A stretch of 58,546 nt of DNA from Lacticaseibacillus suibinensis. GTDB taxonomy: Bacteria > Bacillota > Bacilli > Lactobacillales > Lactobacillaceae. Positions 7,461-31,186 of the stretch are shown piece after piece. Position 1 is the stretch's first letter, and every line of letters begins with the position of its first letter. The stretch spans positions 1 through 58,546 of the forward strand of contig NZ_RHOK01000016.1 of the NCBI RefSeq assembly GCF_003946175.1, given 5' to 3'. A model generated the notes under the pieces. The model was not told the DNA's origin, did no database searches, and saw nothing but the letters and a program-made list of their open reading frames with translations. A program made the position numbers and the translations under genes.

Positions 7461-7485
7461 AGTCTCGCTGCGGCGAGGCTTTTTT
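7461..7485 (+). terminator. Rho-independent terminator after mvaS
   Basis: An 8-bp stem (AGTCTCGC with GCGAGGCT, one T-G pair), a TGCG loop and a T run end immediately before the first 47-bp repeat copy. Confidence 0.75.
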
Positions 7486-7532
7486 AATTAGGGCAAGGAA
7501 ACACGTTCTTTTAAGGACGTGATGAATTGCCC
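7486..7532 (+). repeat. 47-bp hairpin repeat, copy 1
   Basis: It matches 9504-9550 at 45 of 47 positions. The outer arms GGGCAA and TTGCCC pair, and inside them CACGTTCT pairs with AGGACGTG around a TTTA loop. Copy 1 is followed by CTGTTTTT and could itself terminate transcription. Both copies start directly after a terminator T run and flank the pyruvate oxidase gene. Confidence 0.85.
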
Positions 7533-9460: not shown

Positions 9461-9499
9461 AAAGCACTGCCACTCATTTCGGGTGGCAGTGCTTTTTTT
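9461..9499 (+). terminator. Rho-independent terminator after pyruvate oxidase
   Basis: A 13-bp perfect stem AAAGCACTGCCAC / GTGGCAGTGCTTT with a 9-nt loop is followed by a run of T. It is strong. Confidence 0.95.
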
Positions 9500-9503
9500 G
9501 TTG

Positions 9504-9550
9504 AATTAGGGCCAGGAAACACGTTCTTTTAAGGACGTGATAAATTGCCC
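9504..9550 (+). repeat. 47-bp hairpin repeat, copy 2
   Basis: It differs from copy 1 (7486-7532) at two positions only, one in the outer arm (GGGCCA instead of GGGCAA) and one between the stems. The inner CACGTTCT / AGGACGTG hairpin is unchanged. It starts directly after the pyruvate oxidase terminator and runs straight into the helix-rich region at 9551-9790. Confidence 0.85.
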
Positions 9551-17216: not shown

Positions 17217-17240
17217 GCTTTTCGCGGGGGCTGTGACGAA

Positions 17241-17337
17241 AGGCGGTTTTGGAGCCGACAGGTAGCCTAGCCATCTACCAAGTCCGAACTTTGGACTCGG
17301 TGGATGGCGTAGCTAGCTGCTCGGCTCCGGCCTTTTG
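17241..17337 (+). repeat. Structured intergenic repeat, element G (TAGCCTAGC-loop type)
   Basis: A long imperfect hairpin. The outer stem 17251-17258/17321-17328 (GGAGCCGA/TCGGCTCC) and inner stem 17270-17275/17303-17308 (GCCATC/GATGGC) flank an internal loop reading GTAGCCTA on one side and GTAGCTAGC on the other. A tip helix 17281-17285/17293-17297 closes it. The same internal-loop sequences occur, with different helices, on the minus strand at 17969-18072 and 23686-23787. Confidence 0.7.
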
Positions 17338-17382
17338 GCACGTAACTCTGCTGGAACATTCGGAGTGAATGTGGGGGCTGGC

Positions 17383-17626
17383 GCGGGTTACGGTGGTGGG
17401 CTCCGCTGGTGGGCGGCTGGCTGTGCGGCCGGTTCGAGCCGAAAAGCGGTCTCGAACCTAAAGTTAAAGCCGCCTTCGCTGCGCTCAATGGCGTCTTCAA
17501 CTTTGCCGCGATTGGCTCTGGGAAGCCCAGCTAAGCGCGCTGGTCTTCCGGTCGCCAATCGTTTCACTGCCAGCCACCTGCCAGCTCCGCCCACCGCCGC
17601 AACCCGCTTGATAATAGTAGGATGAC
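17383..17626 (-). repeat. Structured intergenic repeat, element A (outer stem plus three hairpins)
   Basis: The outer stem (starting 17383-17389/17601-17607) contains a symmetric 3x3 internal loop, TCC facing TCC on the plus strand, flanked by paired GC steps. It encloses three hairpins: 17431-17438/17451-17458, 17460-17465/17499-17504 and 17510-17516/17554-17560. A tail GATAATAGTAGG follows at 17610-17621. The layout and much sequence are shared with 30492-30740, with compensatory changes in the stems. Orientation is tentatively minus because that strand carries the GGA/GGA loop. Frames through it are not coding. Confidence 0.75.
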
Positions 17627-17782
17627 CGGCTAGCAGCGAACGGTGGCGGGGAAGAGCAGAATTTGGCGAGAAGTCCCAATGGTCGCTGTTCAAGTCACCG
17701 CCAAAAACGCCGGCATGATATGGAGCTTACAACTGGCGAAAACGGCCCATCGGCTGGATTGAACAGTAGGCTCACCACCGTA
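17627..17782. other. Non-coding spacer between structured repeats
   Basis: No convincing frame. It ends with GATTGAACAGTAGG (17757-17770), which repeats the tail found after elements A (17610-17621) and B (30729-30740). This suggests a decayed further copy, but I could not pair clear arms. Confidence 0.4.
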
Positions 17783-17933
17783 GGGCAGGACCGCCGGAGC
17801 AGGCAGGGGCTCAGTGGTGAAATTGTTCTTAGCCAACTTGTTGGCTTAGAACAAGCCGCGACTTTGAGACTCGAAGAGGCTCAAAGCGCTGGCCACCACG
17901 TTCCAGCCACTGCCTGCGGAGGCGGTCCTGCCC
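17783..17933 (+). repeat. Structured intergenic repeat, element D
   Basis: A 13-bp perfect outer stem (17783-17795/17921-17933), a 3x3 internal loop GGA (17796-17798) facing GGA (17918-17920), then an 8-bp perfect stem (17799-17806/17910-17917). Inside lie two hairpins, 17823-17837/17840-17854 (14 of 15 paired) and 17862-17868/17880-17886. The loop is the same as in A, B and F but read on the opposite strand, so D is inverted relative to them. Confidence 0.75.
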
Positions 17934-17963
17934 GGGCCTAATTTCATCGCTTCTTGTAGTTGC

Positions 17964-18077
17964 GTTGCGGTTGGCCAACGCCGGAGTGGCTAGCTACGCG
18001 ACGAGCATCGAAGAAAAAAAGCAGCTTCAATACTCGTCGCTAGGCTACCCATCCGGCTAAATGCGGCCAACCTCCAC
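17964..18077 (-). repeat. Structured intergenic repeat, element E (TAGCCTAGC-loop type)
   Basis: The outer stem 17969-17976/18065-18072 and inner stem 17998-18005/18033-18040 are both perfect 8-bp. Between them lies the conserved internal loop (minus strand GTAGCCTAGC facing GCGTAGCTAGC). Just outside the outer stem, a 3x3 loop TGC/TCC is flanked by a GT/AC pair. It ends about 25 bp before the -10 of the DUF402 gene. It is homologous to 23686-23787. Confidence 0.75.
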
Positions 18078-23614: not shown

Positions 23615-23619
23615 GAGTA

Positions 23620-23672
23620 AGGCCTTGAGCTAGGCTACTCGTCAGGCTAAGTGCGGGCTCGCTCCACAGCAA
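23620..23672 (-). repeat. Structured intergenic repeat, half copy (element F')
   Basis: This stretch resembles the right arm of element F (23745-23797) over about 53 bp (roughly four in five positions): AAGGCC(T/C)TGAGCTAGGCTA, then GCTAAGTGCG and CTCC(A/G)CAGC. The matching left arm is absent, so it is a truncated copy. It lies 70 bp before the complete element. Confidence 0.7.
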
Positions 23673-23680
23673 GTAGTTGC

Positions 23681-23797
23681 GCTCCGGCGGGCAACGCTGG
23701 AGTGATTAACTACGCCCAGGGCCTCGAAGCCAAAAGCAGGCTTCAAGGCCCTGAGCTAGGCTAATCATCCCGCTAAGTGCGCCCGCCTCCGCAGCCT
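23681..23797 (-). repeat. Structured intergenic repeat, element F (TAGCCTAGC-loop type)
   Basis: The outer stem 23686-23692/23781-23787 (GGCGGGC/GCCCGCC) has a 3x3 TCC/TCC loop just outside (23683-23685/23788-23790), flanked by a GC/GC pair. The inner stem is 23717-23724/23746-23753 and the tip helix GAAGCC/GGCTTC is 23726-23731/23739-23744. The internal loop between the stems carries TAGCCTAGC and GCGTAG on the minus strand, as in element E, while every helix differs from E by paired changes. The terminator-less hlyC-type gene lies upstream and the prfC promoter follows. Confidence 0.75.
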
Positions 23798-30465: not shown

Positions 30466-30491
30466 TTTTTCTTACTTTTAGTTTGGAGAAC

Positions 30492-30747
30492 GCGGGTGAC
30501 GTTGGTGGTGGGCTCCGCCTGGGGCGCGAGGCAGCCAGTGCGGCCGGCCCGAGCCAAAAGGCGGTCTCGGGCCTAAAGTTGAAGCCAGCTTCGCTTCGCT
30601 CATTGCTGTCTTCAACTTTGCCGCGATGAGGACTGGTCAGCCTGCCAAATGCGCAGTCTGACTAGTCCTCATCGTTTCACGGCTAGCCTCGCGCCCCAAG
30701 CTCCGCTCACCACCAACGTCACCCGCTCGATTACAGTAGGGGTTACC
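30492..30747 (-). repeat. Structured intergenic repeat, element B (outer stem plus three hairpins)
   Basis: The outer stem is a perfect 19 bp (30492-30510/30708-30726). It is interrupted by a 3x3 TCC/TCC loop flanked by GC pairs (left GCTCCGC 30512-30518, right 30700-30706), then a perfect 13 bp (30520-30532/30686-30698). The three inner hairpins are 30546-30553/30566-30573 (8 bp), 30575-30584/30610-30619 (10 bp) and 30625-30640/30658-30673 (16 bp, one G-T). The tail GATTACAGTAGG (30729-30740) follows. It is a homologue of element A with paired base changes. Any frames through it are unlikely to be coding. Confidence 0.82.
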
Positions 30748-30872
30748 TGCTGACCTTCCTGCTTTATCCTATAATCTGCAATCCTTTATTTGCCAAGTGT
30801 AGCGTAAAGGAGATGTCATTTGACTCAAGGCAACACGAAAAGTGAAGTCGTTACTGTTAGCTAGCGGGTGTG

Positions 30873-31080
30873 GTCGAGGTGGCAGAGAGGCGCGGTGGTG
30901 CGGCAGCGAAACAGTCGACACACGAGGAGACTGCGCAGCAGGCTGCTCCTGTGTCGACTGGGGGCAAATGGGAGACAGCGTTGAGCGTCCGCGATGCTGG
31001 CTCGCATTTGAGGCTGGAGACCGCCCTGTGGCTCCAGCCGACCCCGCAGCAGCACCACCGCGCCTCGGCGCTGCCTCGAC
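30873..31080. repeat. Structured intergenic repeat, element C (same architecture, diverged)
   Basis: The outer stem has GTCGAGG (30873-30879) paired with CCTCGAC (31074-31080) and a 15-bp perfect stem 30887-30901/31052-31066. Inside lie three hairpins: 30913-30922/30950-30959 (extended by AGGAG/CTCCT past a one-base bulge), 30966-30979/30996-31009 (12 of 14 paired) and 31012-31019/31032-31039. The sequence differs from A and B but the outer-stem-plus-three-hairpins plan is the same. The 3x3 GGA loop is not visible here. Confidence 0.65.
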
Positions 31081-31186
31081 CTCGCCCGTGGCCTCAACCA
31101 CACTTTTTTGCTGTTAAACCCGGGTTGAATGACTAGTCATCCTGCCCCCTCTAGTCTAAAATAGTCTCCGGAGAGGGGGCAAGCGA

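Follow-up and report, generated by a model that had tools for sequence, protein, structure and literature searches.

Two related stretches of the 58,546-nt window (the whole length of DNA analysed here), arm A (17383..17626, plus strand) and arm B (30492..30740, plus strand), share a fold while differing in the letters of their stems, and the question that they raise is what keeps such a fold. The first-pass annotation had read them as a selected fold with conserved loops and covarying stems, in either RNA or single-stranded DNA, rather than as decaying inverted repeats. On re-inspection, the coordinates, stems, loops, and compensated stem changes that it gave for A versus B were all correct. 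For instance, hairpin 2 changes from CGCC/GGCG to CAGC/GCTG, and the GATTGGC/GCCAATC stem of hairpin 3 is replaced by a 16-bp stem that is still paired. Both arms are built on one plan, in which a long outer stem surrounds three hairpins and a short unpaired 3' tail follows. In arm A, the outer stem (17383-17607) encloses hairpin 1 (17431..17458), which is GAGCC/GGTCTC with a bulged T, hairpin 2 (17460..17504) with a C.T mismatch, and hairpin 3 (17509..17561) as placed by the fold, all on the plus strand, and the tail is GATAATAGTA. The corresponding elements of arm B, also on the plus strand, are the outer stem (30492-30726), the three hairpins (30546..30573, 30575..30619, and 30624..30674), and the tail GATTACAGTA. 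Against shuffled sequences, folding with RNA parameters gave z values of -6.9 for A (17370-17640) and -13.5 for B (30480-30750), and folding with DNA parameters gave -8.5 and -13.6, respectively; in each of these tests, none of 200 shuffles was as stable.

Overlooked in the annotation was that each of these arms is one half of a convergent pair, with A facing arm C and B facing arm R. Arm C (17783..17933, minus strand), which represents a third arm class, is the inverted partner of A across a spacer at 17627..17770 (no strand assigned), and contains the hairpin CTTTGAG-C-CTC/GAG-T-CTCAAAG. A TCC/TCC internal loop interrupts the outer stem in each of arms A, B, and C. Arm R (30865..31088, minus strand), the inverted partner of B across a spacer at 30741..30851 (likewise strandless), has B's architecture with other stems, and its tail, TTACTGTTAGC, occupies 30853-30866. 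DNA folding gave z values of -9.0 for C and -6.0 for R. Model R1 matches arm A at 17412-17580 (165.6 bits), arm B at 30527-30693 (172.7 bits), and arm R at 30893-31058 on the minus strand (145.9 bits).

Outside the A-C pair lie two further palindromic modules, giving the order D-A-spacer-C-D. The left D (17240..17338, no strand) is a TAGCC-type imperfect palindrome, and the right D (17945..18075, no strand) shows the same motif by eye and folds as DNA with a z of -3.3 (1 of 200 shuffles as stable). By eye, the D motif also stands beside arms at three other loci (L032, L038, and L040). In the sister species, the left D is missing from the orthologous locus (L101), as is the left half of the right D. 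Among 40 scored of 97 candidates in genome G034, which is that of the sister species, at least 22 places match part of the arm C class, orthologues included, and at least 19 places in the same genome match part of the right D module, counting its orthologue and some fragments. Arm A is bordered by a family 4 glycosyl hydrolase gene on one side and a DUF402 gene on the other, and a Clp-type AAA protein gene lies downstream of arm B. Repeats that we take to be CIRCE-like (TTAGCACTC-N9-GAGTGCTAA), as in heat-shock-type promoters, adjoin two arms, one at L015 and the other upstream of B.

The window holds some other repeats as well. The TAGCC-type motif of the outer modules (GCTAGGCTA...GGCTAAGTGCG) occurs two more times at 23619-23781, just after a gene, with no model match nearby. 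A 53-base hairpin-like repeat occurs at 7480-7532 and 9498-9550 in two copies that are 92% alike and about 2 kb apart, and no Rfam family matches it at the gathering score. Finally, the two contig ends (3-148 and 58401-58546) form a perfect 146-base inverted repeat, perhaps marking where the assembly ended at a repeat.

How widely the arms are spread was examined with both sequence and covariance-model searches. With arm A as the blastn query, there were 20 matches in its own genome (2.56 Mb, 55 contigs), 10 in G006, and 4 in G011 of a 21-genome draw from the genus, and nothing in the remaining 18 genomes of that draw. Many of these arm A copies adjoin a second, inverted copy. Searched for separately, arms of the R class turned up 22 times in the own genome, a count that takes in the query itself and some fragments. 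The covariance model matched at 34 places in the own genome, and in the genus as a whole it matched 11 of 30 genomes, the own included, with counts of 55, 41, 35, 34 (own), 34, 23, 12, 11, 10, 2, and 1 from at most 95 candidates scored per genome; the other 19 of the 30 had no match. Searching the Lactobacillaceae with such a model, as the annotation had proposed, revealed further copies in 67 of 397 genomes, belonging to 8 of 40 genera, and none in the other 330 under filters that were stricter than for the genus scan (at most 7 candidates scored per genome). One of these, the single-contig genome G345, has at least 150 arms, as all 150 scored candidates match, and 118 of its arms lie within 400 kb, a density that is an upper view since the 400-kb pieces were picked for their many hits.

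Beyond the family, the matches become sparse. An order-wide scan matched 16 of 395 genomes, and the seven of these outside the family have one weak match each. In those seven genomes (L301-L307), which are from two other families, there is a single-copy relative of the arm that carries GAGCC/GGTCTC in its second hairpin. Outside the Lactobacillales, an exact 21-base pattern found 14 loci, and one of them, in Streptomyces, reached E <0.01 with the model (26.7 bits, E 0.0005), so the weakest of the model matches may be due to chance. As for carriage by phages, two exact patterns had no hits in viral_contigs. Among plasmids, arm A gave four partial matches, three of which are one L. paracasei locus, and neither a G345 pair nor a G024 unit had a match. 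Separately, we observed that the own-genome L020 arm locus together with its flank recurs on L. paracasei plasmids (L222 and L224) and in Schleiferilactobacillus harbinensis (L200); on the plasmids, the arm ends abruptly just before an IS5-family transposase gene.

The convergent arrangement at the A and B loci proved to be general. Our pair survey covered 104 fetched loci from nine genomes with 165 matches, and seven of the genomes had arms less than 1.2 kb apart. All 52 close pairs in these seven genomes of the genus are convergent; the orientation output consisted of 51 '+-' and one '--', and the latter was left out because it is a weak antisense hit within one arm of L013, a locus whose true pair is '+-'. 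Gaps between the arm cores range from 44 to 919 bases, and are mostly 140-300. Of the 35 neighbours in G345 that lie within 600 bases, 34 face each other and the remaining one separates two units, and six more close pairs in other genera (L209, L213, L219, L220, L309, and L310) are all convergent too. Solo arms are also common, with 50 solos and 34 pairs making up 84 units in the G345 pieces. The spacers show little conservation. Ten from the own genome (124-234 bases with tails included) have their tails in common, and apart from these, their only matches are 10-15 bases long. The spacer of the B locus is less alike in the sister species than are the arms and flanks, and at the L013 locus, no match is seen between the two spacers (202 and 203 bases), whereas the arms and flanks do match.

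Copies in genome G024 show what a complete unit looks like. Here, a pair is present at 19 of the 20 loci fetched, and the complete unit measures roughly 870-890 bases and ends in a 17-base palindrome. Another 24 places match at least 687 bases of one 921-base unit at 77-85% identity, and the spacers fall into a few homologous subfamilies, as expected if these are younger copies. By eye, the 20 loci show no target duplication and have ends that vary, and no longer, gene-bearing copy was seen among the end-motif hits away from contig edges.

Evidence for the fold itself comes from covariation in two sets of arms. In the first, 21 arms aligned by sequence, RNAalifold predicted 53 pairs, of which 35 have at least one change on both sides, and 96.8% of the cells pair. 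In fact, 218 cells in this alignment are changed on both sides, compared with 70 (sd 7) after shuffling and 11-31 when the pairing partner is slid. The second set, 118 arms of another genus (G345), differs from the first in being fitted to the covariance model, and has 854 such changes against 239 when shuffled and 54-92 with slid partners. A conserved fold in which bulges and loops persist and stems covary is therefore strongly supported, and this part of the annotation's reading stands; it had named a want of further copies or of covariation as counting against it, and both further copies and covariation were found.

Moreover, the positions that stay unpaired are themselves mostly conserved. 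We compared three sets, consisting of the own genome and G034 (A2), seven other genomes of the genus (A3), and G345 (A4). The bulged T of hairpin 1 (GAGCC...GGTCTC) is present in 62 of 63 arms in A2 and 117 of 118 in A4, and of the 89 rows in A3 with a base at that position, 62 have T and 27 have G. Hairpin 2 has its C.T mismatch in 54 of 60 (A2), 91 of 95 (A3), and 108 of 116 (A4), and hairpin 3 has one in 51 of 60 in A2; the latter does not appear in G345, whose arms mostly have gaps in these columns. Since hairpins 1, 2, and 3 each keep a bulge or a C.T, the pattern AG-C-C...G-T-CT recurs inside a single arm in A2. The feet of the arms are by eye most often GCCGC at the 5' end and GCT or GCTA at the 3' end.

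If the fold were conserved as a structured non-coding RNA, with transcribed arms whose bulged hairpins bind a protein or regulate neighbouring genes and whose copies hitch-hike, G-U pairs would be expected to outnumber A-C in the stems. The conserved fold, loops, and strand-specific mismatches would all suit such an RNA. In columns that are at least 80% Watson-Crick, G.T and A.C number 24 versus 30, 33 versus 51, and 38 versus 51 in the three sets. When all columns are included, the figures become 69 versus 35 (A2), 68 versus 85 (A3), and 98 versus 85 (A4), and the G.T excess in two of the three sets arises because some hairpin-3 columns prefer G.T, a point in favour of RNA. The main count leaves out the columns below 80% Watson-Crick, and some counts also those with fewer than 20 rows. 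In the well-paired columns, G.T makes up about 0.8% of the cells, compared with 5.7% in 42 distinct tRNAs of the same genome, a control that is imperfect in that the tRNA pairs carry no 80% Watson-Crick filter, unlike the arm columns, and ARAGORN may bracket standard pairs only (its A.C of 0 was left unused). As G.T is no commoner than A.C where pairing is good, a fold kept in DNA fits better than one kept in RNA.

Other observations bear on the same choice. The single-copy relative mentioned above adjoins, in six of its seven genomes, the start of what we take to be a purE-like gene, with a presumed purD-like frame on the other side in both translated loci, and this position beside one gene, in six genomes of another family, counts in favour of the RNA. 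On the other hand, convergent pairs would yield transcripts that face each other, and at least 150 copies in one genome are hard to square with an RNA gene. No Rfam family matches the arms at the gathering score, and the hits below it, mostly animal microRNA models, are weak and at chance level, so a known RNA family was rejected. Altogether, of the two options that the annotation had left side by side, DNA is the one favoured, though this falls short of proof and the left-out columns blur the signal, and we regard a structured RNA as unlikely.

The next explanation dispenses with selection, and views the arms as ordinary palindromes in decay, whose stems stay perfect through template-switch (quasi-palindrome) correction and through gene conversion among the copies, so that the covariation is mutational. 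Some of what is seen at sites shared with the sister species fits this view. The B locus is 94% alike in G034 over 2204 aligned positions. At L015 and its counterpart L090, a spacer common to both species is flanked at the same positions by two arms of other classes, and at L035 and L041, one arm each is only 54% and 52% alike, respectively, when compared with the sister species' arm at that position. Some arms that are full in G034 have shrunk in the own genome to just the outer hairpin (the right arm of L016 and the left arm of L034). Moreover, the outer stems in G345 (L273-L292) include a few shared families together with many unrelated, nearly perfect stems, which are bounded by conserved feet (for example, GCCGCCTCC and TTCCGGCTA).

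Deletion can be seen as well, since G034 has lost the L040 arm that the own genome still carries and retains the feet of that arm; for this reason, L040 was rejected as an empty site. Indeed, when the flanks of eight own-genome loci were sought in the sister genome, no empty site was found. A listed arm is there at six (one via its right flank only), L040 is the deletion, and L048 has diverged. Replacement and deletion are thus directly visible as outcomes at orthologous sites, and past insertion is what we infer. In 12 orthologous arms with at least 87% identity (leaving out L010L, L035R, and L041R, which fall below it), 88 pairs differ on one side only, whereas 13 differ on both sides and still pair and 5 differ on both sides and no longer pair, so selection on pairing acts slowly.

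Palindrome repair and arm replacement, whose results are seen at these orthologous sites, may also contribute part of the covariation. As the whole explanation, however, repair meets the difficulty that correction should erase the bulged T and the C.T, yet both are nearly fixed in A2 and A4, as is the geometry of the pairs and, less strictly, the feet. We accordingly give it a rather low probability, slightly below that of the RNA.

With respect to gene context, 108 of the 118 arms in G345 overlap no called ORF of at least 90 aa by more than 30 nt, in DNA of which 77% is called coding. Six mechanical ORFs (91-110 aa) across the arms of the window have no Pfam family. Pairs in G345 lie in tandem, divergent, and convergent gene gaps 20, 6, and 3 times, compared with a background of 224, 43, and 43, and solo arms do so 27, 8, and 14 times. 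That the arms are host-used chromosome elements (gyrase, nucleoid protein or resolvase sites, or transcription insulators) kept for the cell's benefit is improbable: their high copy number and mostly intergenic position in several genera, the excess of solo arms in convergent gaps (14/49 versus 43/310 background, Fisher p 0.02), and the binding of REPs by several proteins reported in PMC2817692 would agree with it, but the pairs have no preference for such gaps (3/29, p 0.78), most of the genomes scanned in the family and in the genus have no match, and arms are deleted or replaced at orthologous sites.

For the remaining reading, a mobile DNA element, we searched for a mover. The Y1_Tnp domain (PF01797) of RAYT and IS200-type enzymes was sought in 13 and then 12 genomes. 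Seven of the 12 element-bearing genomes (G345, G024, G006, G011, G215, G377, and G370) had no match and five had one, with two partial matches in the own genome; as the domain is not tied to the arm family, mobilisation by RAYT/IS200 was rejected. Nor was an autonomous copy recognised between facing arms. In eight gaps between facing arms 400-4500 bases apart, the ORFs look on reading like ordinary genes, and the two pairs with a checked gene in the spacer (L097, 293-1210, and L160, 3020-3660) encode a GNAT acetyltransferase and a RelB-family antitoxin, so that none of these gaps appears to hold such a copy.

Among known systems, REPINs and BIMEs are the closest kind to the arm family. Passages of PMC3116915 and PMC8266576 describe REPINs and TnpA-REP systems as extragenic inverted doublets with, in the E. 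coli type, a required bulge, and a passage of PMC3733652 describes sub-families of REP-type repeats with alternative complementary stem residues. On the strength of these passages (PMC3116915, PMC8266576, PMC3733652), both kinds are multi-copy extragenic palindromes that occur as singlets and as inverted doublets around a spacer, and both have a conserved foot and complementary stem changes. However, a REP has 20-50 nt and one hairpin, while the arms here measure about 150-245 bp and have three hairpins within an outer stem. Furthermore, the GTAG (or CGTC) foot tag is absent, with GCCGC and GCT(A) in its place by eye, and the RAYT gene is missing from the seven genomes named above, even from G345 with its many arms. 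The IS200/IS605 elements (IS608 and ISDra2) likewise have hairpins at their ends, which according to part of PMC8266576 are recognised in single-stranded form by way of bases in loops or mismatches, but the arms have three hairpins each and no tnpA-like gene was found tied to the elements.

MITEs resemble the arm pairs in being short, with no recognised gene, inverted ends, and many copies, though the arm ends are conserved more as a fold than as sequence, and we found neither target duplication nor a parent transposon. The inverted terminal repeat of AAV, in which an outer stem surrounds side hairpins and an unpaired tail points towards the inside of the element, is similar in shape only. The pneumococcal repeats BOX, RUP, and SPRITE, the last being a further intergenic repeat of that species, are like the arms in their intergenic position and their occurrence in Lactobacillales, and are probably set apart by their sequences. 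BOX and RUP are presented in part of PMC3049150 as intergenic repeats of another Lactobacillales genus. We found no description of the arm family in the open literature, including passages of PMC2267715 and PMC13155455, a scope that leaves most subscription-journal papers and all preprints outside.

Our preferred reading, which we hold with modest confidence, takes A and B to be the terminal arms of a giant, non-autonomous, apparently non-coding REPIN-like mobile DNA element. Its unit would consist of two arms of about 150-245 bp, with the 3' tails pointing inward and a little-conserved spacer of roughly 0.1-0.3 kb between them, and sometimes with further palindromic modules outside the pair. 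Each arm, either single-stranded or extruded as a cruciform, would form the outer stem and three hairpins, and the putative contact points of a DNA-binding enzyme on this fold are the feet, the TCC/TCC loop (in A, B, and C), and the bulged T or C.T together with the bases around it (AGC C ... G T CT). Such an enzyme, supplied in trans, would move the arm pair. What we infer here is recognition of the fold as DNA, movement of the pair by an enzyme, and the choice of strand. More tentatively, and as something that we consider less likely than not, the arms may belong to a new class of single-stranded DNA mobile element, in which convergent pairs of three-hairpin arms are read via the bulged T and the C.T by an enzyme other than a Y1-HUH one, stems and spacers are renewed by copying, and hundreds of copies have accumulated in some Lactobacillaceae.

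For lactobacilli, this would add an abundant repeat family for which we found no description, and whose fold is kept while its letters turn over. It also carries a warning that covariation alone is no proof of a structured RNA. If our preferred reading is true, the REPIN way of life would be separated from its only known enzyme, and the arms would offer a testable case of selection on the secondary structure of DNA and not of RNA.
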